Origin: Rhodospirillales bacterium
GTDB lineage: Bacteria > Pseudomonadota > Alphaproteobacteria > Rhodospirillales > Shumkoniaceae
Direction: 5' to 3'
Length of the DNA stretch: 64,000 bases
Assembly: GCA_028281785.1 (NCBI GenBank)
Contig: JANQJG010000091.1
Location: 1-64,000, forward strand
A program made the translations under genes and the position numbers. Below, one piece after another: positions 4,365-33,302 of the stretch. Within the stretch, counting starts at the first letter, position 1, and each line of letters begins with the position of its first letter. The notes beneath the pieces are model-generated. The model searched no databases. It had not been told where the DNA came from and saw only the letters and a program-made list of their open reading frames with translations.

Positions 4365-5495
4365 ATGAAAATTGTTTCGATTGAACCATTCTCCATCGAC
4401 GGTCCGGTCAGTGATTTGTGTTACGTCAAGGTGCAGACGGACGAAGGAATCGCGGGATACGGCGAGTGTTCCCTTCCCGGCAAGCCGAACGGGGTGGCCG
4501 GCGCGATACGGGATCTCGAACGATTGCTGTTGGAAGCGGATCCGACGGATTCGGAGTGGTGCTGGCAGCGTGCCTACCGGCACGGTTATTGGCGCGGCGG
4601 GCCCATCCTGACCAGCGCGATGTCCGGTGTGGACGTGGCCTTGTGGGACATCCGCGGAAAGCTGGTCGATCAGCCCATCTACAAGCTGTTGGGCGGGGCG
4701 GTCCGGAAACGGATCCGCCTTTACGCCAATCTCGGCTTGTCCGAGGATCCCGAGGTCTTCCGTCAGCGGACGCGGGCGGCCTTGGCCCTCGGCTACAGGA
4801 CGGTCAAGATCTATCCGCTGCCGCCGGTCGGATCGGTCGTCGACAAGCAGGCCCTCGCCAGTGTCGTCGCTTGCTGCGAGGCCATGCGCGAGGAACTGGG
4901 GGATCGCGATTTCGCGCTCGATTTCCATGGCAAGCTGACGGCGGCCGGCGCCATCGCCATGGAGGCCGCGGTACGCCATACGAATCCGCTATGGATCGAA
5001 GAGCCGGTCGCCGCGGAATCGCCCGCGGAACTGCGCCGCTGTGTCGAGCACTTCACGGTTCCCATTGCCGTAGGCGAAAGACTTTTCACGCGTTGGGGGT
5101 TTCGCCCAATTCTCGACGAACAGCTCGCTGGCATCATTCAGCCGGACGTGTCGAACGCCGGGGGGATCACCGAATTGTCGAAACTCGCAGCGATGGCTGA
5201 AACCTACGGCGTCGCCTTCAATCCGCATAACCCCAACGGACCGTTGCAGGTGCTGGCGTCCCTGCACTTGGCGGCAAGTGCCCAGGCGTTCGCGATGCTC
5301 GAGCATCGTCATGAGTTCCACGACGCCTTCGCCCGGATCGCTGCGCCCGTCGTTGCCGTGGAGGACGACGGATGCTGCGGCCTGCCTCCCGGCCCAGGAT
5401 TGGGAGGGACGCCGTGTCCGCGCGAGCCAGGGCAGCCGATACGGGGAAAAATCCACGAGAGCTTCCGCCGCGATGGCGGAATCGATGACTGGTGA
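4365..5495 (+). CDS. Mandelate racemase/enolase-superfamily dehydratase, galactonate dehydratase type
   Basis: 376 aa enolase-superfamily protein that should dehydrate a sugar acid to a 2-keto-3-deoxy product. Active-site residues line up with E. coli galactonate dehydratase DgoD (as remembered: D183, H185, E209, E235, H285) at a constant offset of three: D186 and H188 in DFHG, E212 in WIEEP, E238 in VGERL and H288 in NPHNPNGP. The N-terminal capping domain covers about residues 1-120 and the barrel the rest. It follows the TRAP genes by 75 bases in the same direction. Substrate identity among aldonates is not proven. Confidence 0.85.
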   Translation: MKIVSIEPFSIDGPVSDLCYVKVQTDEGIAGYGECSLPGKPNGVAGAIRDLERLLLEADPTDSEWCWQRAYRHGYWRGGPILTSAMSGVDVALWDIRGKLVDQPIYKLLGGAVRKRIRLYANLGLSEDPEVFRQRTRAALALGYRTVKIYPLPPVGSVVDKQALASVVACCEAMREELGDRDFALDFHGKLTAAGAIAMEAAVRHTNPLWIEEPVAAESPAELRRCVEHFTVPIAVGERLFTRWGFRPILDEQLAGIIQPDVSNAGGITELSKLAAMAETYGVAFNPHNPNGPLQVLASLHLAASAQAFAMLEHRHEFHDAFARIAAPVVAVEDDGCCGLPPGPGLGGTPCPREPGQPIRGKIHESFRRDGGIDDW

Positions 5496-5521
5496 GGGTG
5501 CGGGGGAATGCCCCAACGTCG

Positions 5522-5566
5522 AGGCGGCGTTTCAAGTTGTCTTGAAACGCCGCCTGGGTTTCTTGT
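5522..5566 (+). terminator. Intrinsic terminator after the dehydratase gene
   Basis: A perfect 15-bp stem (5522-5536 with 5541-5555) with a TTGT loop is followed by GGGTTTCTTGT. It lies 27 bases past the dehydratase stop and would end the TRAP/dehydratase transcript. It may also act on the opposite strand for katG read-through. Confidence 0.8.
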
Positions 5567-5682
5567 CCTTGACGTCTGCCGGTGTCCTGGGCGATCGCAG
5601 GTTTGCGGAGGCTCGATCTGGCCCTCACCCACGCTCGAACGCCGCTGGGCTTCAGCAGCCCTTGAGCGCCTCCTGACAGGCG

Positions 5683-7905
<2,223 letters not shown>

Positions 7906-22744: not shown

Positions 22745-23817
22745 ATGGACAGTTATCTTTCCTATCTTTTAGACAAGGCGCCTGTTGGCGAGGGTGCCGG
22801 TCGGACGGATTTCGGGTCGCCGGACGACTCGCAAATCCTGGACGCCTATTCGCGCGCCGTAACCGGTGCGGTGGACGCGGTCGCGCCGTAACCGGTGCGG
22901 TGGACGCGGTCGCGCCGGCCGTGGTGCACCTTCAGGTGAAGGGATCGGCAGAGGCATCCGGCCGACGACGGACGGGCGTTCCCCGACAGGGCAGCGGCTC
23001 GGGCATAGTCGTGGTGCCGGACGGACTGATTCTCACCAACAGCCATGTCGTGCAGGGGGCAGGTGCCATCGAAGTGACAACCGGAGAGGGCCAGACGTTC
23101 GCCGCGCGGGTGATCGGCGACGATCCCGGAACCGACTTGGCGCTGGTGCGGACCGATCAGGAGGCGAGCCTGCCCGCCGCCCGCCTCGGTGAATCGAGGG
23201 GCCTCAGGGTCGGTCAGCTGGTGATCGCCATCGGCAACCCCCTGGGCTTCGAGTGTACGGTGACAGCGGGCGTGGTCAGTGCCCTCGGGCGTTCCCTGCG
23301 CTCGCGCACCGGACGCCTGATCGACGACGTCATTCAGACGGACGCGGCCCTCAACCCCGGCAACTCCGGCGGCCCCCTGGTTACGTCGCGGGGCGAGGTG
23401 GTCGGAATCAACACCGCCGTCGTCATGGGCGCCCAAGGAATCTGCTTTGCTGTGACATGAAATACGCCCCGCATCGTATTTGGGAAAATGATACGATACG
23501 GACGGATTCGAATAGGGTATATCGGCATTGCTGGGCAGTAGGTCGCCATTCTCCGCCGGGTCGCCTGCTTCCAATGGCTGGATCAGGATTTTGGCGTCCT
23601 CGTGGCCCGGCTCGAACCCGATGGCCCAGCCGCGCGGGCGGGCTTGCGCGAAGGTGATGTGTTGCTCAGCCTTGACGGCCAACCAATCGGCGGCCTCGAT
23701 GACCTGCTGCGGCATTTGAGCGAGGAGGCGGTCGGCCGGCCTCTCGCGATCAAGGCGTTGCGCGGGGCTGGGCTTCATTCGTTCGATGTGACGCCGAACG
23801 AACGTCCCGCCGATTGA
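22745..23817 (+). pseudogene. HtrA/DegP-type serine protease, inactivated
   Basis: ATG 22745 has GAGG eight bases upstream and opens MDSYLSYLLDKAPVGEG. At 22853 a 29-bp tandem duplication shifts the frame and brings in a TAA at 22889. Removing one copy joins this leader to the protease domain, where the catalytic triad is visible: His in LTNSHVV, Asp in DPGTDLALV and Ser in NPGNSGGPL. Two in-frame stops follow (TGA 23458, TAG 23539) inside an otherwise readable linker and PDZ domain (EPDGPAARAGLREGDVLLSL). The lesions indicate real decay of a periplasmic or cytoplasmic quality-control protease. Confidence 0.88.
22853..22910 (+). repeat. 29-bp tandem duplication in htrA
   Basis: Two identical adjacent 29-base copies (22853-22881 and 22882-22910) are followed by seven bases of a third. 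Twenty-nine is not a multiple of three, so the duplication breaks the htrA frame. Confidence 0.92.
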
Positions 23818-25088
23818 TCCGGGCCTTTTCCAGCCGGCGTCCGGCCCAGCCGGCGGGCCACCCGCTCGGCCGCCTCCACACCGGTTTCGTAGGCGCCGTG
23901 AACCGTTCCATATGCGTTGACCGAACAGGCCTCCCCGGCGAAGAAGACGCGGTCCCCGACCGGCGCGCGAAGAGCTTGGCGGCTGTCCGCCTTTCCCGGT
24001 CGGGCCGAGGAGTAGCCGCCGAGAATATGGGGATCGCTGGACCAGTGGGTGGTGGCGACGCCGCAAAGATGGCGCTGGATATGCGATCCAAAGACCTCGA
24101 CGAGCTTCTCCTTGGCGAAGGCGATCATCGCCCGCGCGCCCTCGGCCTCGAGATGGGCCGCGAACCGGCCGGCGAGATATCCGACCGCCAGGTTTCGGTC
24201 GAAGGAACGGATCTGAAAGCGAATCGCCTCGAGCGTGTCATGCTCGAAATGGAGCTGGGCTGGGCCGGGCATGCCGAAGACGTCGCGGGAAAAGGCGAAC
24301 GCCACTTTCTCCGCATGGCCGAGCGGTAACCCGGCGATCGCGCCCTCGGTCTCCCCCGGAAGCAGGGGATCGAACGCCAAAGCGCCCGCCGCCAGGACGT
24401 TCGTGGAAACCGTCACGATGACGGCCCGGCAGGCGATGTCTCCCCGCGGCGTCTCCACAACGGCGGATCTGCCGCCCCAGCGCACGCGCCGGGCGGGCGT
24501 CTCCAACTGCACGGGCACGCCCTCGCCATATCGCGCGACCAGCCCGCCGAAGCCCTCTCGGATGGTCCAGTTGGACAGGCCGCCGCGGTAGCGGTGGTCG
24601 TCCAGGGTCGACAGACGGTCCGGCTCGACCCCGCTGATCGCCGCGCACCAGGAGTCGAACATGGCACGGAATCGCGACCCTTCCGGCAGAACCGTCGAGG
24701 CTGCGACGTCCTTCCCCGAAGCCCCGGATTCCTTTATCGCGGCGAAGGCCCTGGCGAAATAGTCCTCCCTTCCCGCGCGGACCGCCTCCTCGGCCCAATT
24801 GCCACGACTCCAGAGAAGGCTCTCGGCGGGTTGCCGTTCGATATGGTGGCCGGCGGTCTCGGCATAACCCGCGAACGCGTTCTCCTCGGCATGGTGAAGC
24901 CAGTGGGCCCCCCGATCCCAAGAAAGCTTGGCCAAGCGGTCCGTCCAGGCGCGCCCGCCCAGCCGTCCCTTGGATTCGAGAACAACGACCTTCAAGCCAC
25001 GTGAGAGCGCGGTCTTCGCCGCCGCCAGGCCGGCCGCGCCGGCACCGATGACAACGACATCTGGCTCTCCATCATGCCGCAAGGCCAC
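23775..25088 (-). CDS. Flavin-containing amine oxidase
   Basis: 437 aa from GTG 25088, placed just before the dinucleotide fold; the frame is open to a TTG at 25226, so the start is uncertain. The FAD-binding motif VVVIGAGAAGLAAA and the GRLGGRAWT motif are at the N-terminus, and the C-terminal FAD segment is FFAGEACSVNAYGTVHGAY. The family oxidises amines, polyamines or amino acids and releases peroxide. Its 3' end overlaps the last 43 bases of the htrA pseudogene. The substrate is unknown. Confidence 0.87.
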   Translation of the reverse strand: MALRHDGEPDVVVIGAGAAGLAAAKTALSRGLKVVVLESKGRLGGRAWTDRLAKLSWDRGAHWLHHAEENAFAGYAETAGHHIERQPAESLLWSRGNWAEEAVRAGREDYFARAFAAIKESGASGKDVAASTVLPEGSRFRAMFDSWCAAISGVEPDRLSTLDDHRYRGGLSNWTIREGFGGLVARYGEGVPVQLETPARRVRWGGRSAVVETPRGDIACRAVIVTVSTNVLAAGALAFDPLLPGETEGAIAGLPLGHAEKVAFAFSRDVFGMPGPAQLHFEHDTLEAIRFQIRSFDRNLAVGYLAGRFAAHLEAEGARAMIAFAKEKLVEVFGSHIQRHLCGVATTHWSSDPHILGGYSSARPGKADSRQALRAPVGDRVFFAGEACSVNAYGTVHGAYETGVEAAERVARRLGRTPAGKGPDQSAGRSFGVTSNE

Positions 25089-25415
25089 GCCCTCTTTTTC
25101 AGGGAAACCCTCTGCCGACTCGCGGCGGCAGAATGCCGCCGAGCCTGCCTTTGGGCACCATACCGGGCGCCCTTGGACCTCACAAGGCCGTCCTGGCGAA
25201 GCTCTTTCCCTGGCCACAAACCCCAAGAGTCCGGCGGGCTGCGGCCAACTCCCCGAGGAAAAGCAGGCCGCGCCCTAGACGGTAATTCCCGTCTGACATA
25301 ATCTATTGTTTTGAGGGATGATGGGCATCCCCCGCATCGCCGGAATGCTCGGCGCGTTCCGACGATGGCGTAACGTCGCTGGCAGGACGGCGAGACGTTA
25401 CCGTCGCAGTTGCCC
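25089..25415. other. Divergent intergenic region, no gene seen
   Basis: This gap lies between the proposed amine oxidase start and hpnI. The first 140 bases may still belong to the amine oxidase if it starts at the TTG at 25226. No convincing promoter, repeat or small gene was recognised. Confidence 0.5.
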
Positions 25416-26579
25416 ATGGATCTCGATCTGGCAGTCGATGCCCTTCTGGGTGGGTGTTTGGCAGGGATCATTTACCTGCTCGCGGGGGTCTATGCGGTCC
25501 GTCGGTTCAAGGCGTCGATCTCGAAACCGGCCACGGTCGGCTATTATCCTTCCGTGACCGTGCTGAAACCGGTCTGCGGCGACGAGCCTGGCCTCTACGA
25601 AAACCTCCGCTCCTTCTGCGAGCAGGACTATGCCGATGTCCAGGATGTCCAAATCGTGTTTGGCGCCGCGGACGAGATGGACCCGGCGGTCGGCGTGGTG
25701 CGCCGGTTGATCCGGGATCTCCCATGGGCCGATCTGACGCTCGTCGTCGACGGCCGCATCGAGGGCAGAAACCGCAAGATCAGCAATCTCGTCAAGATGG
25801 TCGCCAAGGCTCGCCACGAAGTGGTCGTCGTCGCCGACAGCGATATGCGCGTGGGCCGGGACTATCTGACTCGAGTCGTCGGGACCCTGGCCGACCGGGG
25901 CGTCGGCCTTGCGACCTGTCTCTATGTCGGGCGGCCGGTCGGGGGGCTATGGTCCGCGCTCGGCGCCATGGGGATCAACTATGGCTTTCTCCCCTCCGTA
26001 CTTGTCGGCCGTATGCTGGGCGCGCGGGCAGGATGCTTCGGTGCCACGATGGCGATTCCCCGTGACGCCCTCGAGCGGATCGGCGGTTTCGGCCCCGTCC
26101 GCGACCTGCTCGCCGAGGACTATGCGCTGGGCGCGGCGATCCAGGGCCTCGGTAGGCGAGTTGCGATCGCCCCCTACGTTGTCGATAACATCGTCTTTGA
26201 ACCCAGTTTCCGGTCCCTGTTTCGGCATGAACTGCGGTGGGCGCGAACCATCCGTTCGATCGCGCCGCTAGAATACGCCGTGTCGGTCGTCACCAATCCG
26301 GTGGCCCTGGCGATACTCGCCGTCGTTCTGACGGGATTGGAGGGCGTTGCCGTGATCCTGCTGGCGTTGGCTCTCCTGTGTCGTGAGATCATGGTCCGCG
26401 TCGTCGAACGCGTATTCGGCTTGGCTCGGGCGCCGCGCCGGTTGGTGCCGCTGCGCGACCTTCTGTCGCTCATCGTTCTTGTGGTCAGTTTTATGGGCCG
26501 ACAGGTGGTCTGGCGGGACCGCCGCTTCCGCGTCGACTCCGGGGGACGGTTGGTCGCCGAGAGCGATTCGGCGCCGTGA
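25416..26579 (+). CDS. hpnI: HpnI-type membrane glycosyltransferase (hopanoid glycolipid)
   Basis: 387 aa family 2 glycosyltransferase related to ceramide glucosyltransferase. An N-terminal helix is followed by the GT2 core: VTVLKPVCGDEPGLYENL, the D-x-D-like site VVADSDMRV, and the acceptor and catalytic motifs LLAEDYALG and RHELRWART (QRRW-like). Two or three C-terminal helices follow. In hopanoid producers HpnI adds N-acetylglucosamine to bacteriohopanetetrol. ATG 25416 is chosen over TTG 25410. The gene overlaps hpnK by four bases (GTGA). Confidence 0.82.
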   Translation: MDLDLAVDALLGGCLAGIIYLLAGVYAVRRFKASISKPATVGYYPSVTVLKPVCGDEPGLYENLRSFCEQDYADVQDVQIVFGAADEMDPAVGVVRRLIRDLPWADLTLVVDGRIEGRNRKISNLVKMVAKARHEVVVVADSDMRVGRDYLTRVVGTLADRGVGLATCLYVGRPVGGLWSALGAMGINYGFLPSVLVGRMLGARAGCFGATMAIPRDALERIGGFGPVRDLLAEDYALGAAIQGLGRRVAIAPYVVDNIVFEPSFRSLFRHELRWARTIRSIAPLEYAVSVVTNPVALAILAVVLTGLEGVAVILLALALLCREIMVRVVERVFGLARAPRRLVPLRDLLSLIVLVVSFMGRQVVWRDRRFRVDSGGRLVAESDSAP

Positions 26580-27541
26580 GCACGCGTGGCGGGGAGGGCG
26601 GTGCCGCCCAACGTTTCGGTGAGGGATTCCGGGGGGATGCCCCGCCCAAGCGACTCATCGTCACGGCTGACGATTTCGGCCTCGACCCGGCCGTCAACGA
26701 AGCCGTCGAACAGGCCCATCGCGACGGGATTCTGACCTCCGCCAGTCTGATGATCGGCGCGGCCGCGGCCGAGGACGCCGTCGCCCGCGCCCGCCGGCTG
26801 CCCGGGCTCCGGGTCGGCCTGCATCTGACGCTGAGCGATGCGCGTCCGGTCTCGCCGATCAAGGACGTATCGCGATTGGTGGCCGCCGACGGCCGATTCG
26901 TGGGCGGTCCGGTCGAAGCCGGCCTCCGCTATGCTTTGCGCCCCGGCGTTCGCCGTGAGCTGGCCGGCGAAATCAGAGCCCAGTTCGCGGCTTTCGCCAA
27001 AACCGGCTTGCCGCTCGACCATCTGAACGCGCATCAGCATCTGCACCTCCATCCAGTGATCGGCAGGCTGGTTATCGAAATCGGTCGGGAGTTCGGGCTC
27101 CACGCCCTGCGCCTGCCTTGGGAGCCCCGACACGTGATCGCGCGGGCCGAGCCAGGCGCGTCGCCCGGTTTGGTCGCCGCCGCTGTCATCCATCCCTGGC
27201 TTTCGCTGTTACGCCGTCGCGTTCGCCGGGCCGGACTCCTCGCCTGCGACCAGGTTTTCGGCCTGACCTGGAGCGGCGCGATGACGGAGGCGCGATGGCG
27301 GGCCCTGCTGCCCCATCTTCCGGACGGGCTGACCGAGATCTACTGCCACCCAGCCGCGGACTCCTTCGTCGCCCCGCAACCGGTGCCGGGCTATCGCTAT
27401 GTCGAGGAGCTGGCGGCGCTCCTTGGTCCGGAGATACGTCGTGATCTTCATCGGTATGGTATCTTGTTGACCTCCTATGGGAAGGTGGTCGGAAACAGGG
27501 GAACCGGCCCGGATGCGGGAGGCGGAAAGCAGACTCGGTGA
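26576..27541 (+). CDS. hpnK: HpnK-type YdjC-family deacetylase
   Basis: 321 aa YdjC/ChbG-like carbohydrate deacetylase. GTG 26576 overlaps the hpnI stop. The metal and catalytic motif TADDFGLDPAVN lies near residue 27, with GLHLTLSD near 82 and HLNAHQHLHLHP near 145, all characteristic of HpnK. Known HpnK removes the N-acetyl group from the sugar placed by HpnI, giving glucosaminyl hopanoid. The overlap with hpnI supports a shared pathway. Confidence 0.85.
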   Translation: MSTRGGEGGAAQRFGEGFRGDAPPKRLIVTADDFGLDPAVNEAVEQAHRDGILTSASLMIGAAAAEDAVARARRLPGLRVGLHLTLSDARPVSPIKDVSRLVAADGRFVGGPVEAGLRYALRPGVRRELAGEIRAQFAAFAKTGLPLDHLNAHQHLHLHPVIGRLVIEIGREFGLHALRLPWEPRHVIARAEPGASPGLVAAAVIHPWLSLLRRRVRRAGLLACDQVFGLTWSGAMTEARWRALLPHLPDGLTEIYCHPAADSFVAPQPVPGYRYVEELAALLGPEIRRDLHRYGILLTSYGKVVGNRGTGPDAGGGKQTR

Positions 27542-28190
27542 GGCGACCCGGCCGCGAGGTGTGTTCGGTCCGCGGCGCGCCATACTCGCGCTCGACCGGT
27601 TCCTGAGGTTGCGCATGGGCATCTTCGAGTATTCGCATGATCCCGACTGCCTTGCCCGCATCGCGATCATCCCGGCCGACGCCGATGCCCGCCTCGCCGA
27701 CGGCACGACCGTCCGCAAGGGGGATCGGGTCATTGACCTCCATTTCTGGAACGACCGGATTCCCCCAATGCCCGAGGGAGGGTTCAGCCTCGCCTGGGGC
27801 GTGCAGATGGAACGGCGGTTCGTTGTCAGCTTCCGGGCCTTGTCCGCCTATCTGGACTCCCGGCCGGACCTTCGCGATATCTCGGCCGTTCGTGCCGAAA
27901 CCGCCTTTTCCACGCGATCCGGGCCGGTCAAGATCGAGCGGATCATGGCGCGCTGGGGATTCGAATCGCACACGCCGATGGCTGCCCCCGGCCTGATCGC
28001 CCGGCTCCACCGTTTCGGCGCCGACCTGCTGCTGGCCGCCCTGACCTGGGCCTTCAACGCGGGGGCTCTGCGCCACACGGGTTGGAAACGGCGGCACGAT
28101 CGCTTCTGGATGGCGCGCAGCGTCCTAAGCGAGCGATACGGGTCGCCCGCCCGGTCACGGAGGGCGGGCAGCGGAGCACGCTCGACGTGA
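27513..28190 (+). CDS. YkoP-like domain protein of unknown function
   Basis: 225 aa from ATG 27513, inside the 3' end of hpnK; ATG 27477 is an alternative. No catalytic motif is recognised. The core around LRMGIFEYSHDPDCLARIAI and GDRVIDLHFWNDRIP resembles the YkoP-like domain often found beside polysaccharide deacetylases and glycosyltransferases. It has no signal peptide. Its overlaps with hpnK and with the next glycosyltransferase (GTGA) point to a role in the same glycolipid pathway. The name rests on remembered similarity. Confidence 0.6.
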   Translation: MREAESRLGEATRPRGVFGPRRAILALDRFLRLRMGIFEYSHDPDCLARIAIIPADADARLADGTTVRKGDRVIDLHFWNDRIPPMPEGGFSLAWGVQMERRFVVSFRALSAYLDSRPDLRDISAVRAETAFSTRSGPVKIERIMARWGFESHTPMAAPGLIARLHRFGADLLLAALTWAFNAGALRHTGWKRRHDRFWMARSVLSERYGSPARSRRAGSGARST

Positions 28191-29377
28191 TCGCCGCGCT
28201 CCTCGCGTCCCTCGCCTGGGCTGCGCTCATCGTCGCGCTCGTCCTGCGCATGTTGCGCCAATACCGGCACTTCGAGGAGGTCGGGCCGCAACCCGCCGCG
28301 ACCGCCGCGGACACTCCCGACCTCGCGGTGATCGTGCCTGCCCGTAATGAGGCCGCGCGCATCGAGCGCTGCCTGAACGCTCTTTTGAAGCAGGACTATC
28401 CTTCGTCGAGACTGCACATTGTCGTCGTCGATGACGACTCGTCGGATGACACCGCCGCCATTGTCCAGGCGGTGGTCGCGGATGCCGGGGGCGCGACCTT
28501 GTTGCGGGCTCCGCCATTGCCAAAGGGCTGGATGGGCAAGCCCCACGCCTGCCAGGCGGGAGCCGACAGCGTTCGGGCCGAGTGGCTCTGCTTCATGGAT
28601 GCCGATACCCGGGCCGAGCCCGAATTGCTCACGGCGGTCGTTGCGTTGGCACGCGCGCGGGGCCTCGACATGCTCTCGCTGGAGCCGTTTCAAGTGCTCG
28701 GAAGCTTCTGGGAGCGAGTGATCATGCCGGCCGGCTATCTGCTCGTCGCCTTTTTTCTCGATTCCGCGCGTGCCAACGACCCCAACGACCCGCAAGCGGC
28801 GGCGAATGGCCAGTTCATTCTCATCCGCCGGGAGGTGTACGACGCCGTCGGCGGTCACGCCGCCGTCCGCGACGCGATTACCGAGGATTTCGCTCTCGCG
28901 CGTCGGGTCAAGCGGGCCGGATACGGCCTGGCCATGCTTGGGGGCAGGCGGCTGATCCGGACACGCATGTACTCCGGGCTGGGGGAGATCTGGCGCGGCT
29001 TGTCGAAGAACGTCCCGGATATCGTCGGCGGTGGCGGCAAGACCGTTCTCCTCGCTCTTGCCGCGGCCCTGCTGGGGGTCGCGAGCCTTGGCCTGCCCGC
29101 CTGGACTCTGCCGCCGGCCATCGCCGATCCCACCCCGCTCCGGATCGCGGCGGCGTTTCTCTCCCTGGCCGGCACCGCGACCCTCCTCGGTCTCCATATC
29201 GGGACGGTCAGACATTTTCGGGTTCCGGCTTGGTACGGACTTCTCCTTCCGCTCGGTTCTGCCGTTGGCGCGATGCTCGCCCTCCATGCCATCTGGTGGC
29301 GTGTGCGGGGATATGTCGCTTGGAAGGACCGCGCCTACACGACCGTGCCGGAAACGCGTGGATCAGATCGCGATTAA
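28187..29377 (+). CDS. Family 2 glycosyltransferase, CrtQ/HpnB-like
   Basis: 396 aa from GTG 28187 overlapping the previous stop. An N-terminal membrane anchor is followed by the GT2 domain: VIVPARNEAARIERCL, VVVDDDSSDDT, PKGWMGKPHACQAG, the metal site FMDADTRAEPE and the acceptor-side AITEDFALARRVK. Three or four C-terminal helices follow. The KGWMGK motif is shared with CrtQ-type and hopene-associated HpnB glycosyltransferases. It is the last gene of the hpnI-hpnK operon and is likely to decorate the same or a related polyisoprenoid lipid (inference). Confidence 0.78.
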   Translation: MIAALLASLAWAALIVALVLRMLRQYRHFEEVGPQPAATAADTPDLAVIVPARNEAARIERCLNALLKQDYPSSRLHIVVVDDDSSDDTAAIVQAVVADAGGATLLRAPPLPKGWMGKPHACQAGADSVRAEWLCFMDADTRAEPELLTAVVALARARGLDMLSLEPFQVLGSFWERVIMPAGYLLVAFFLDSARANDPNDPQAAANGQFILIRREVYDAVGGHAAVRDAITEDFALARRVKRAGYGLAMLGGRRLIRTRMYSGLGEIWRGLSKNVPDIVGGGGKTVLLALAAALLGVASLGLPAWTLPPAIADPTPLRIAAAFLSLAGTATLLGLHIGTVRHFRVPAWYGLLLPLGSAVGAMLALHAIWWRVRGYVAWKDRAYTTVPETRGSDRD

Positions 29378-29498
29378 ATGGAAGCGCTCCGGGATACCAT
29401 TTCATCCCGTGAATCTGATCTGGTTCATTGAAGGAGAGCTGATCCGACAGGCTCGAACGGAAATATGCGCTGACCGTCCGGCCACCCACCCTGGTCAC

Positions 29499-29535
29499 GG
29501 ATTCGCCACAATTGCTGTCGGAATCCGCCACAATT
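29499..29535. repeat. Two direct repeats, possible IS21-family end relic
   Basis: GGATTCGCCACAATT (29499-29513) and GGAATCCGCCACAATT (29520-29535) are near-identical and closely spaced, a layout seen at IS21-family termini as remembered. No istA or istB is present. The rest of the 356-base gap 29378-29733 holds a hairpin and no gene. Confidence 0.35.
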
Positions 29536-29578
29536 TCGGGTTAGTACCTTATCCGTGAGGGGTGGCGCGGACCCCCAA

Positions 29579-29624
29579 GCCCCCGCCCGCCGGATCACCC
29601 GACGCCGCTTCGGCGGGCGGGGGC
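29579..29624. terminator. Long GC hairpin between the hpn and opg operons
   Basis: A perfect 14-bp stem (29579-29592 with 29611-29624) encloses an 18-base loop. It has no T-run on either side. It lies 200 bases past the glycosyltransferase stop and 110 before opgG, so it may separate the two transcripts or be part of a decayed element. Confidence 0.5.
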
Positions 29625-29733
29625 ACTGGGAGCCCTAAGCGGCTGTCCGTCATTGGGCACCGCCGAGGGAGTCTCCGCGCCGTCTCGCAGGGGAACTATG
29701 CTAAATCCAATCAATGAGCCGTGAGCGGCCGCT

Positions 29734-31317
29734 GTGACAAACACTCTATCCTCATCCATTCGTCGATGCGGGTGCGGGGCAAATTACCGGCGATTTCTGC
29801 GATATGCGCTTCTGGCGGCCGTGGCGCTGGTCGTTGGCTTCCCGACGACGGGTGGCGCGGAGAATGGGCCGTTCGGGTTCGAGACCGTCGTGGAGCGGGC
29901 CCGTGAGCTGGCGGCCACCGGTTACGAGGAGCCGCGCCGGAATCTTCCGCCGCCCCTCGAGTCATTGAACTATGACCGCTATCGCGACATCCGCTTCCGG
30001 CCGGACCGTGCCCTCTGGCATGGCGAACGTCTGTTCGAGGTGCAGTTCTTCCATCTCGGCTTCCTCTACAGGGAACCTGTCGGGATCCATGTCGTGGAAG
30101 ACGGCCAGACGCGACAGCTTTCCTACAGCCAGGACATGTTCACGTTCGGGCCGCAGGCACCCCGGGATCCCCTGCCCGAGGCTCTCGGCTTTGCCGGTTT
30201 TCGGGTGCACTTTCCTCTGCATGGTCCCGGCTACAAGGACGAAGTCGCGGTCTTTCTCGGTGCCTCCTATTTCCGTGTCCTCGGCCGCGATCAGCACTAC
30301 GGCGCCTCCGTCCGCGGCCTGGCGATCGACACCGCCATGCCCCGCGGCGAGGAGTTTCCCCGTTTCCGCGATTTCTGGCTGATGACGCCGGAGCCCGAGG
30401 CGACGACCCTCACCCTCTATGCCCTTCTCGACAGCCCCCGATATGCCGGTGCCTACGCTTTCGTCATAAATCCTGGAACCGAGACGACGATCGCTGTGCG
30501 CGCGGCCCTGTTTCCCCGGGCCAGGGTCGGGAAGCTGGGCCTGGCGCCGCTGACCAGCATGTACCTATTCGGCGAGCGAACCGCCCGCCGTTTCGACGAT
30601 TACCGGCCCGCGGTACACGATTCGGACGGCCTGCTGATCCACACCGGTGCGGGAGAATGGATCTGGCGTCCGCTGGACAACCCGGCGCAGCTTCAAGTCA
30701 CCGCCTTTCTCGATGAGAACCCGCGCGGCTTCGGTTTGATGCAGCGCGCGCGGGCGTTCGATCGTTATCTCGACCTGGAATCGGCCTATGAGCGCCGCCC
30801 GAGCGTCTGGGTCGAGCCGGACGGGGACTGGGGCAAGGGTGCCGTCGAACTGGTCGAGATCCCTTCGGACGAGGAGGTCAACGACAACATCGTCGCCTAT
30901 TGGCGCCCGGACGCGGTGCCGAATGCCGACGACCGGATGGATCTCGCCTACACTCTCACGGCCCGTCTCGTGGAACCCACCCGTCCGCCTCTCGGCCGAA
31001 CCGTGCGCACGCTGATCGGCTCGGCCGCCATTCCCGGCAGCGATCACAGCCCGCCGGCGGAGATGCGACGATTCGTGGTCGATTTCGAAGGCGGCGACTT
31101 GCCGTTTCTGTCAGCCGGTGAACCGGTCGAGGCCCGGCTCGCCAACTCCGCAGGCGAAGTATCCGAAGTGACGGCGCGCAAGATTCCCGACACGGGAGGC
31201 TGGCGGGTTTCCTTTCGGCTGCTGCCGAAAGGAGGAGATACGGCCGATCTGAGCTTGTTCCTCGAACATCGCGGCCGGCGCGTTTCCGAAACCTGGAAGT
31301 ATCTGTGGCGGCCATGA
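29734..31317 (+). CDS. opgG: Periplasmic glucan biosynthesis protein OpgG/MdoG
   Basis: 527 aa periplasmic protein of osmoregulated glucan synthesis. GTG 29734 gives a leader with a hydrophobic core (YALLAAVALVVGF) and cleavage near TGGAEN. Family segments include FGFETVVERARELA, FQVQFF-like FEVQFFHLGFLY, PLTSMYLFGE, PAVHDSDGLLI and the WVEPDGDWGKGAVELVEIP block. OpgG acts on the beta-1,2-glucan backbone released by OpgH. The stop overlaps the opgH ATG (ATGA), so the two are one operon. Confidence 0.94.
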   Translation: MTNTLSSSIRRCGCGANYRRFLRYALLAAVALVVGFPTTGGAENGPFGFETVVERARELAATGYEEPRRNLPPPLESLNYDRYRDIRFRPDRALWHGERLFEVQFFHLGFLYREPVGIHVVEDGQTRQLSYSQDMFTFGPQAPRDPLPEALGFAGFRVHFPLHGPGYKDEVAVFLGASYFRVLGRDQHYGASVRGLAIDTAMPRGEEFPRFRDFWLMTPEPEATTLTLYALLDSPRYAGAYAFVINPGTETTIAVRAALFPRARVGKLGLAPLTSMYLFGERTARRFDDYRPAVHDSDGLLIHTGAGEWIWRPLDNPAQLQVTAFLDENPRGFGLMQRARAFDRYLDLESAYERRPSVWVEPDGDWGKGAVELVEIPSDEEVNDNIVAYWRPDAVPNADDRMDLAYTLTARLVEPTRPPLGRTVRTLIGSAAIPGSDHSPPAEMRRFVVDFEGGDLPFLSAGEPVEARLANSAGEVSEVTARKIPDTGGWRVSFRLLPKGGDTADLSLFLEHRGRRVSETWKYLWRP

Positions 31318-33302
31318 TGGATACGACTCATTTCCTCACCGAACGCTGGTCCGTGGCGGCTCGAATCCGGGATCTGGCCGTCATCGAAACGCCCCGGCCA
31401 GGGCTCAGACGGACCGGATTTTTTGGTCTCGTCGGGCTCACGACCATTGCCGCGACCTTCGTCATGGCCGAGGTTCTCTCGGCCAACGGCATGAGCCTGC
31501 TCGAAGCCGCGGTGCTTATCCTCTTCGCCGTCAACCTGGCCTGGATCGCGTTGTCGTTCTGGACGGCCATGGCCGGTTTCGTTCTCCGCCTGTTCGACCG
31601 CGACCCGGTCAGCCTGCGTCGTCGCAAGTGCGTGCCTCGGCCGACCTCCTTTCCGCGCACCGCGATCGTCATGCCTGTCTTCCAGGAGGACCCCGCGCGG
31701 GTTTTCGCTGGACTGGAGGCCATCTACAGGTCTCTCGCCGCGACCGGCCAACTGGAGGATTTCGACTTCTTCGTCCTCAGCGACACCCGGGACGAGGGGC
31801 TGGCCGAGGCCGAGCGTGCGGCTTGGCGGGATTTCAGTCGGCGGATGGACGGCGCCCGGGTGTTCTACCGACGGCGGCGGGACAATACCGGCCGCAAGGC
31901 GGGCAACATCGCCGATTTTTGCCGGCGCTGGGGGCGGCACTACCCCTACATGATCGTCCTCGATGCCGACAGCCTGATGTCCGGCGAGACCATTCTTGAG
32001 CTTGTGTCGCGGATGGAGGCGAATCCCCGGATGGGCCTTCTGCAGACGCAGCCGGTGCCGGTCAATCGCGAAACCCTTTTCGCGCGCTTCATCCAGTTCG
32101 CGTCACGGCTCTACGGTCCGATGTTGGCCAGCGGCGCCAGCTTTTGGCAGCTCGGCGAGGGCAATTTCTGGGGTCACAACGCGATCATCCGGACGCAAGC
32201 CTTCATGGCCCATTGCGGGTTGCCCGAGCTGCCCGGCAGGCCGCCGCTTGGCGGTCAGATCCTCAGTCACGATTTCGTCGAGGCGGCGCTCCTGCGCCGG
32301 GCCGGCTGGCATGTCTGCTTTGCCGACGATCTGGAGGGCAGTTACGAGGAGGTGCCGACCAATCTGATCGACTATGCCCAGCGTGACCGCCGCTGGTGCC
32401 AGGGCAACCTCCAGCATCTCAAGCTCGTGTCGGCCAGCGGCCTGCATCCGCTCAGCCGGCTTCATTTGCTCTGCGGCGCCCAAGCGTATCTGGCCTCCCT
32501 GTTCTGGCTCGCCATGCTGGTTCTTACGACGGTCGCCATCATCGCCCACGCCCTGTCCGGACACGCCTATTTCCCCTTCGACTACCAGCTGCATCCGATC
32601 TGGCCGGTGTTCAAATCGGCGGAGATCCACCTCCTGCTCACGGTGACCATGGCTCTTCTCTGGTTGCCCAAGCTGTGGGGGTTGGCACTGGCGCTGGTAA
32701 GAGCCGAGGCTAGGCGAGGCTTCGGGGGCGCCGGACGGCTTCTCCTGAGCGCCGGTTGCGAGGCGCTCTTCTCGGTTTTGATCGCGCCGCTGATGATGGT
32801 TTTCCATACCCGCTTCGTGGTTTCGGTGTTGGCGGGGTGGAGCGTCCAATGGTCGGCGCAGGCTCGCGACGAGCGTGGCCTGGCCCTCGGCGAAGCTGCC
32901 CGGAGACTGGGGCCGTCCGTTCTCCTGGGATTGGCGTGGGGGGCGGTCCTCTGGTGGTTCGCGCCCAATTTCATCTGGTGGTTTGTGCCTATTCTCGCAG
33001 GGTTATGGCTGGGCTTCCCCCTGGCCTTGTGGTCGAGTCGCAGTGATCTCGGCATCCGGGCACGAACCAGAGGCCTCCTGCTCACGCCCGAGGAGACGGC
33101 GCCGCCCCCGGTGCTTGAAGGTTTGCGGGCGGCGCTCCGGAAGGGCGGCAGCGAAGGCGTCGGGTTGGCGGAGAGAGAGTTCCCGGAGGTTCCCGACGAC
33201 CTCATCGGCCAGATGCCGACGCAAATCCTTGAGCGACCGTGGTCTCAACCCCCTCGAACGCCCCGCCGTATCGGGGCGCCAAAGGTGTCCACGCCCGCTT
33301 GA
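31314..33302 (+). CDS. opgH: Glucan biosynthesis glucosyltransferase OpgH/MdoH
   Basis: 662 aa inner-membrane GT2 enzyme that makes the linear beta-1,2-glucan from UDP-glucose. Membrane helices flank a cytoplasmic catalytic domain with TAIVMPVFQEDPARVFAGL, the D-x-D site VLDADSLMSG, the acceptor region ILSHDFVEAALLRRAGW and the Q-x2-RW motif RDRRWCQGNLQH. ATG 31314 is used; a GTG at 31305 is also in frame. It is shorter than E. coli MdoH (about 847 aa) because of a short N-terminus, as in other Alphaproteobacteria. Confidence 0.94.
   Translation: MMDTTHFLTERWSVAARIRDLAVIETPRPGLRRTGFFGLVGLTTIAATFVMAEVLSANGMSLLEAAVLILFAVNLAWIALSFWTAMAGFVLRLFDRDPVSLRRRKCVPRPTSFPRTAIVMPVFQEDPARVFAGLEAIYRSLAATGQLEDFDFFVLSDTRDEGLAEAERAAWRDFSRRMDGARVFYRRRRDNTGRKAGNIADFCRRWGRHYPYMIVLDADSLMSGETILELVSRMEANPRMGLLQTQPVPVNRETLFARFIQFASRLYGPMLASGASFWQLGEGNFWGHNAIIRTQAFMAHCGLPELPGRPPLGGQILSHDFVEAALLRRAGWHVCFADDLEGSYEEVPTNLIDYAQRDRRWCQGNLQHLKLVSASGLHPLSRLHLLCGAQAYLASLFWLAMLVLTTVAIIAHALSGHAYFPFDYQLHPIWPVFKSAEIHLLLTVTMALLWLPKLWGLALALVRAEARRGFGGAGRLLLSAGCEALFSVLIAPLMMVFHTRFVVSVLAGWSVQWSAQARDERGLALGEAARRLGPSVLLGLAWGAVLWWFAPNFIWWFVPILAGLWLGFPLALWSSRSDLGIRARTRGLLLTPEETAPPPVLEGLRAALRKGGSEGVGLAEREFPEVPDDLIGQMPTQILERPWSQPPRTPRRIGAPKVSTPA

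Follow-up and report, generated by a model that had tools for sequence, protein, structure and literature searches.

An overlapping hpnI-hpnK operon with two additional genes

Here we describe a four-gene operon in a 64,000-nucleotide stretch of DNA from a Rhodospirillales bacterium of the family Shumkoniaceae (contig JANQJG010000091.1); this stretch is referred to as the window, and all coordinates are positions within it. Four intact open reading frames follow one another on the + strand between 25416 and 29377, namely hpnI, hpnK, a YkoP-like gene and a gene for a glycosyltransferase of family 2 (GT2; hereafter gene 4), with overlaps of 4, 29 and 4 bases between successive genes. This overlapping arrangement had been drawn in a first-pass annotation, and the identities proposed there (hpnI, hpnK, a YkoP-like gene and an extra glycosyltransferase) are borne out by profile hidden Markov model scores, gene 4 being similar to HpnB and CruG at levels below their cut-offs.

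The product of hpnI (25416..26579, + strand; ATG start at 25416, or TTG at 25410) is a GT2/GT21-type glycosyltransferase that passes the curated cut-off of TIGR03472 (434.5 bits against 310), retains the DSD, DY and RW motifs in an alignment with five HpnI proteins, and contains three hydrophobic stretches by a simple scan. The product of hpnK (26576..27541, + strand; GTG start) is a YdjC-type deacetylase that likewise passes the curated cut-off of its family (361.5 bits against 232.6 for TIGR03473; 236.8 bits with PF04794) and retains the DDFG motif and the HxxxHxHxHxHP block when aligned with five HpnK proteins. We take the YdjC residues to have their usual metal-binding and catalytic roles, and the HpnI and HpnK motifs to carry their usual meanings. 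Going by what is known of the two families, HpnI is predicted to transfer N-acetylglucosamine (GlcNAc) to bacteriohopanetetrol (BHT) and HpnK is predicted to strip the N-acetyl group, and we consider it probable that both act on BHT in this organism, where they are the only HpnI over the cut-off and the only HpnK in the genome. Passages of PMC12583986 describe a pathway in which BHT glucosamine is reached in two steps, those of hpnI and hpnK.

The genome encodes a hopanoid backbone and no detectable hpnJ

The first-pass annotation had noted the absence of other genes for hopanoids, the sterol-like lipids of bacteria, nearby, a statement that holds for the window and fails for the genome. Searches of the window by tblastn (E≤1e-3) with the genome's own Shc, HpnH, HpnG, HpnE, HpnD, HpnC, HpnM and HpnN, and with a Methylobacterium HpnJ, gave no match, and the sole window match of the genome's own HpnB was gene 4, at 30% identity. 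Elsewhere in the assembly (5.24 Mb in 254 contigs, 97.5% complete, 3.7% contamination), shc, hpnH and hpnG are all present, so that the first of the two findings that would have told against the first-pass reading, a genome without hopanoid synthesis genes, does not apply. Two squalene-hopene cyclases exceed the cut-off (796.6 and 776.2 bits), on contigs C171 and C121 respectively, and around the cyclase gene on C171 lie hpnN, ispH, hpnH, hpnG, hpnE, hpnD, hpnB, hpnC and an HpnM-like gene. The hpn genes of this cluster are over their cut-offs (HpnH 552, HpnG 198, HpnC 276, HpnD 329, HpnE 387 and HpnB 546 bits), except for the HpnM-like gene (98.7 against 160.1). The second full-length shc, on C121 (L004, 8960-11014), stands apart from the hpn cluster and adjoins glyQ/glyS, with a polyprenyl diphosphate synthase-type gene nearby.

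Passages in PMC12583986 and PMC5462960, both citing Schmerk et al. 2015, name hpnI-hpnJ-hpnK as the genes for BHT cyclitol ether. With eight candidates scored, no hpnJ was matched at E≤0.001 in this 97.5% complete genome; the backbone and the glucosamine step are thus encoded, the cyclitol-ether step apparently not, and BHT-glucosamine or a derivative of it, rather than the cyclitol ether, would therefore be expected. Like the system of hpnI-hpnJ-hpnK, this one has an HpnI and an HpnK over curated cut-offs, coupled genes and a backbone encoded in the genome; it differs in that no hpnJ was found and in that the operon has two extra overlapping genes. Incomplete sets are not unknown, since Acidobacteria SD1 and SD3 have hpnI and hpnJ without hpnK, according to part of PMC5462960. 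A portion of PMC12583986 reports that Rhodoligotrophos appendicifer has hpnI and hpnK without hpnJ and that its hopanoid polyols are 100% BHT glucosamine, and also that many species with hpnI, hpnJ and hpnK retain much BHT glucosamine.

A divergent YkoP-domain protein

The third gene (27513..28190, + strand; ATG start) encodes a 225-residue protein with a match to PF22790 (40.9 bits against a gathering cut-off of 27) that covers positions 43-183 of 183; an alternative ATG at 27477 would extend the overlap with hpnK to 65 bases. A simple scan shows no hydrophobic membrane stretch. The assignment is consistent with a profile built from the Thermomicrobium, Paenibacillus and Bacillus proteins only, which finds the window protein at 24.1 bits (E 1.3e-6, computed for a set space of 1000 sequences), and with a G-x6-D-x4-[LI]-H-[FL]-x-N motif and a GF pair common to all four proteins.

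Within the phylum the gene is rare, as judged from the few matches to PF22790 and to the protein itself. In overlapping samples of 385 class and 398 phylum genomes, PF22790 was matched at E≤0.001 in two of the former, one of them below the cut-off (20.8 bits), and in one of the latter, the window's own, so that the window's genome is the only one over the cut-off in either sample. With the window protein as query, 2 of the 199 order genomes gave a match, namely the window's own and one with a weak row (E 6.4e-4) interrupted by two internal stops. Neither this row (G075) nor the class match below the cut-off (G266) was counted as real. PF22790 was over the cut-off in three of 14 control genomes (Bacillus subtilis, Thermus composti and Deinobacterium chartae), and YkoP relatives were found in 0 of 63 genome contig stretches. 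Among plasmids, tblastn of the window protein gave no match at E≤0.01, a 199-residue part of it gave five weak records at E≤10, including Thermomicrobium roseum (E=7), and PF22790 was absent from both Deinococcota plasmids scanned.

The Thermomicrobium roseum protein is a YkoP by Pfam scan (136.3 bits) and stands last in a row of DUF2334 (annotated as polysaccharide deacetylase)-GT2-GT2-YkoP. With this protein as query we found a Polysacc_deac_1 domain (118.9 bits) fused to YkoP (183.1 bits) in Paenibacillus cellulosilyticus. Of the three named YkoP records, a small sample drawn from plasmids only, two unrelated ones thus link the domain to a deacetylase, by fusion or by a shared gene row, and the third, from Bacillus velezensis, does not. 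These two cases resemble the window operon in joining a sugar deacetylase to YkoP and, in Thermomicrobium, also in having two glycosyltransferases; they differ in that their deacetylases are of the Polysacc_deac_1 or DUF2334 type, not YdjC, with no hopanoid link shown. On the strength of this association, we tentatively suggest that the YkoP-domain protein helps deacetylation. Unlikely, but worth stating, is a wider version in which YkoP would be a general helper of lipid-borne aminosugar deacetylases, recruited separately to Polysacc_deac_1-, DUF2334- and YdjC-type enzymes, the hopanoid pathway here ending in an undescribed glycosyl-glucosaminyl hopanoid and not in a cyclitol ether. A single-sequence structure model of the protein reached a mean pLDDT (predicted local distance difference test) of 34, no solved structure was related to it by sequence at E≤1, and among the open-access papers listed as naming YkoP or PF22790, none was on hopanoids by title.

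Gene 4 falls outside the HpnB and carotenoid-cluster clades

Gene 4 (28187..29377, + strand; GTG start) encodes a protein with GT2 motifs and four hydrophobic stretches. It shares the superfamily and catalytic motifs of HpnB and CruG-type glycosyltransferases, whereas it scores below both cut-offs (194.3 bits against 379.25 for HpnB, TIGR03469; 174.9 against 600 for CruG) and falls outside both clades. In a tree of 34 proteins it forms a lone long branch whose exact place is unsure: it lies outside a group of 25 rows that holds the 12 labelled HpnB (support 100/97), it attaches weakly to the HpnB side (81/44), and it lies outside the carotenoid-cluster group (96/83). Its GK..AC, GQ and SKN (G[LF]SKN-like) motifs fit the carotenoid-cluster type and not HpnB (GKLWAV, GGC, ART). 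Identity as HpnB was rejected on score, tree position and motifs, and the genome has its own HpnB on C171. The best match of gene 4 in the 199 order and 385 class genomes is 39% identical; the three class hits examined out of four (L170, L171 and L172) are HpnB genes inside hopanoid clusters, and the order hit, in L173, groups by tree with the carotenoid type.

The shared motifs raise the possibility that gene 4 glycosylates a carotenoid and that the operon serves two isoprenoid lipids. All four named carotenoid-type relatives have an annotated crtI in the stretch; three of these glycosyltransferase genes follow immediately after an acyltransferase gene, and the fourth is one gene removed from it. 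In the genome studied here no crtI-family protein exceeds the cut-off (best 43.4 against 238.1 bits), which argues against a carotenoid acceptor, as does the position of gene 4 outside the carotenoid clade; we judge such a role very improbable. Of the ideas that remain, the simplest is a hopanoid or hopanoid-like acceptor, and the addition of a sugar to a hopanoid by gene 4 is possible rather than probable, the second sugar being suggested by association. Among the matches listed in a search of open-access literature on disaccharide or composite hopanoids, none was on hopanoids by title.

Distribution and origin of the operon

The operon was compared with 90 loci, of which 7 come from family or order relatives, 3 from plasmids and 80 from a species-level collection, these being the best 80 among its 129 HpnK loci. 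The collection may omit the genome of the window and its nearest neighbors, in which case a closely related genome carrying all four genes could go unseen. In a tblastn tally at E≤1e-20, 77 loci have hpnI, hpnJ and hpnK, 5 have hpnI and hpnK without hpnJ, 4 have hpnK only, 2 have hpnI and hpnJ and 2 have hpnJ and hpnK; several loci are cut by contig ends, making the incomplete classes upper bounds. YkoP was matched in none of the 90 (E≤1e-3), and gene 4 matches (E≤1e-10) occurred only next to HpnB matches (L074, L095 and L119). Conservation of the four-gene set, which the joint function suggested in the first-pass annotation would lead one to expect, was thus seen in none of the relatives examined, and for this sample the result counts against that suggestion. 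Among the data searched, this elaboration of hpnI-hpnK is rare or unique and not a conserved system.

The five loci with hpnI and hpnK and no hpnJ are those of a Paraburkholderia graminis plasmid, a Sphingomonadaceae metagenome-assembled genome (MAG) and three Eremiobacterota MAGs with the order hpnK-hpnI. Together with Rhodoligotrophos appendicifer, as described in part of PMC12583986, they resemble the window operon in having hpnI and hpnK adjacent and no HpnJ in the locus; unlike it, these five loci have no YkoP match, and gene 4 finds a counterpart in just one of them, where it matches the HpnB gene in the Sphingomonadaceae MAG. The Paraburkholderia graminis genes overlap (L047, NZ_CP024936.1, 3674-5822; no hpnJ in the stretch read) and are carried by a plasmid classed as conjugative, at a distance of a few genes from a gene with a lysylphosphatidylglycerol synthase domain, and represent hopanoid decoration on a mobile element. 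In the Eremiobacterota MAGs (L086, L118 and L120, the last cut inside hpnI) no hpnJ was matched in the locus, and shc, hpnH, hpnE and hpnD were matched in the same locus in two of the three. In Methylobacterium bullatum (L046), an open reading frame at 5195-5986 that looks by eye like an SPFH/band-7 protein lies between hpnJ and hpnK.

Five genomes of the same family, including the window's own, were available. HpnI is over the cut-off in three of the others, all ordered hpnI-hpnJ-hpnK and apart from the main cluster within the 14 kb read, so it is nothing unusual for hpnI and hpnK to be separated from that cluster. In the fourth relative, a 73% complete genome, no HpnI exceeds the cut-off; YkoP was matched in none of the four. 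Trees were built from 38 hand-picked loci of the 90, giving 37 rows for HpnI and 36 for HpnK with the window included. The window HpnI pairs with the copy of an Azospirillaceae MAG (98/97), to which it is 56% identical, and the window HpnK falls in an eight-row group (95/89) with Azospirillaceae, Acetobacteraceae/Acidocellaceae and two other MAGs, one of them labelled Nitrosovibrio. Vertical inheritance with the family is unsupported, as both copies group with Azospirillaceae and away from the same-family G010, G035 and G053; past transfer or hidden paralogy of hpnI and hpnK is likely on this evidence.

The tetranucleotide composition of the cassette correlates at 0.873 with that of the hpn contig and C121 (4-kb pieces), within the 0.825-0.911 of the window's own 4-kb chunks. 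A contaminant contig is therefore unsupported. Loci taken from three genomes of the same family, two of the order and three named ones gave 0.667-0.848, a slight overlap of ranges. The guanine-plus-cytosine content of the cassette (0.67) is the highest of five window parts (others 0.611-0.667). In composition the cassette does not stand out as recent, and an old transfer is compatible with this.

HpnI also matches Pfam Glyco_transf_21, a family that we take to include ceramide glucosyltransferases. This match, the distance of the operon from the core hpn cluster, a gene 4 that is not HpnB, and the Thermomicrobium deacetylase-glycosyltransferase-glycosyltransferase-YkoP row with no shown hopanoid link (its glycosyltransferases being unscanned with the HpnI model) would fit a cassette that serves a different lipid, ceramide-like or polyprenyl for example, with HpnI and HpnK recruited for another deacetylated aminosugar glycolipid that gene 4 extends. 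Such a use is quite unlikely: both enzymes pass curated cut-offs and fall in trees among copies mostly from hpnI-hpnJ-hpnK loci, and the genome that encodes the backbone has no other HpnI over the cut-off and no other HpnK.

A proposed route to an extended glucosaminyl hopanoid

Based on these observations, we tentatively propose that this is a glucosaminyl-hopanoid operon that lacks hpnJ and includes a partner for the deacetylase as well as a second sugar transferase. In this model, BHT would be supplied by the C171 cluster and receive GlcNAc from HpnI, and HpnK would remove the acetyl group from GlcNAc-BHT. With no HpnJ, the glucosamine would escape contraction to the cyclitol ether and BHT-glucosamine would remain. 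The YkoP-domain protein may aid the deacetylase on the membrane lipid or pick its substrate, and gene 4 would then attach a further sugar to the glucosaminyl hopanoid or a related lipid.

Several observations weigh against this proposal. The four-gene set was found nowhere else among the genomes and loci searched, so conservation cannot prove a joint function; none of the 88 HpnK-bearing loci has a YkoP match, and canonical HpnK therefore evidently needs none. The window YkoP is divergent (40.9 bits against 136, 183 and 205 for the other three proteins), and a lone plasmid-borne YkoP of Bacillus velezensis (205 bits), found with the Thermomicrobium query, has no deacetylase beside it. In B. 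subtilis, part of PMC6212828 describes the S477-ykoP operon as a possible regulatory RNA together with YkoP of unknown function. Gene 4 is long-branched, with no close relative in the genomes searched (best 39-41%), and the HpnJ model gave matches below the cut-off in all 14 control genomes, yet nowhere in this one.

It could be that only hpnI-hpnK matters, that plain BHT-glucosamine is made, and that YkoP and gene 4 are passengers acting, for example, on another envelope glycan. The description of hpnI and hpnK as two steps to BHT glucosamine (in the passages of PMC12583986), the lack of conservation and the Bacillus velezensis YkoP without a deacetylase favor this explanation, whereas the unbroken chain of overlaps through the four genes, with 29 bases shared by hpnK and the YkoP-like gene, a composition with no sign of fresh insertion (0.873 against 0.825-0.911) and the YkoP-deacetylase links in Thermomicrobium and Paenibacillus do not. 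We regard it as somewhat doubtful.

If the extended glucosaminyl-hopanoid proposal is correct, YkoP, a domain of unknown function, would gain its first testable role, a second mode of completing a glucosaminyl hopanoid in the absence of HpnJ would be shown, and a new hopanoid glycolipid would be predicted. Hopanoid polyols serve as biomarkers, as noted in part of PMC12583986, and unrecognised end products would therefore matter for how such biomarkers are read.

Surroundings of the operon

An Rfam scan of window positions 23000-32000 gave no match. Upstream of hpnI lies a weak sigma-70-like promoter match (25293..25322, + strand; 9 of 12 positions), the single one in 25100-29800, where shuffling gives an expectation of 0.5; the count is no evidence of function. 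A divergent gene of the flavin adenine dinucleotide (FAD) amine oxidase type is found upstream of the operon. Downstream, about 350 bases past the operon, a pair of genes like mdoG/mdoH (opgG/opgH), which are associated with periplasmic glucans, occupies 29734-33302. MdoH copies in three same-family genomes are 48-50% identical and lie on contigs other than those carrying their hpnI.

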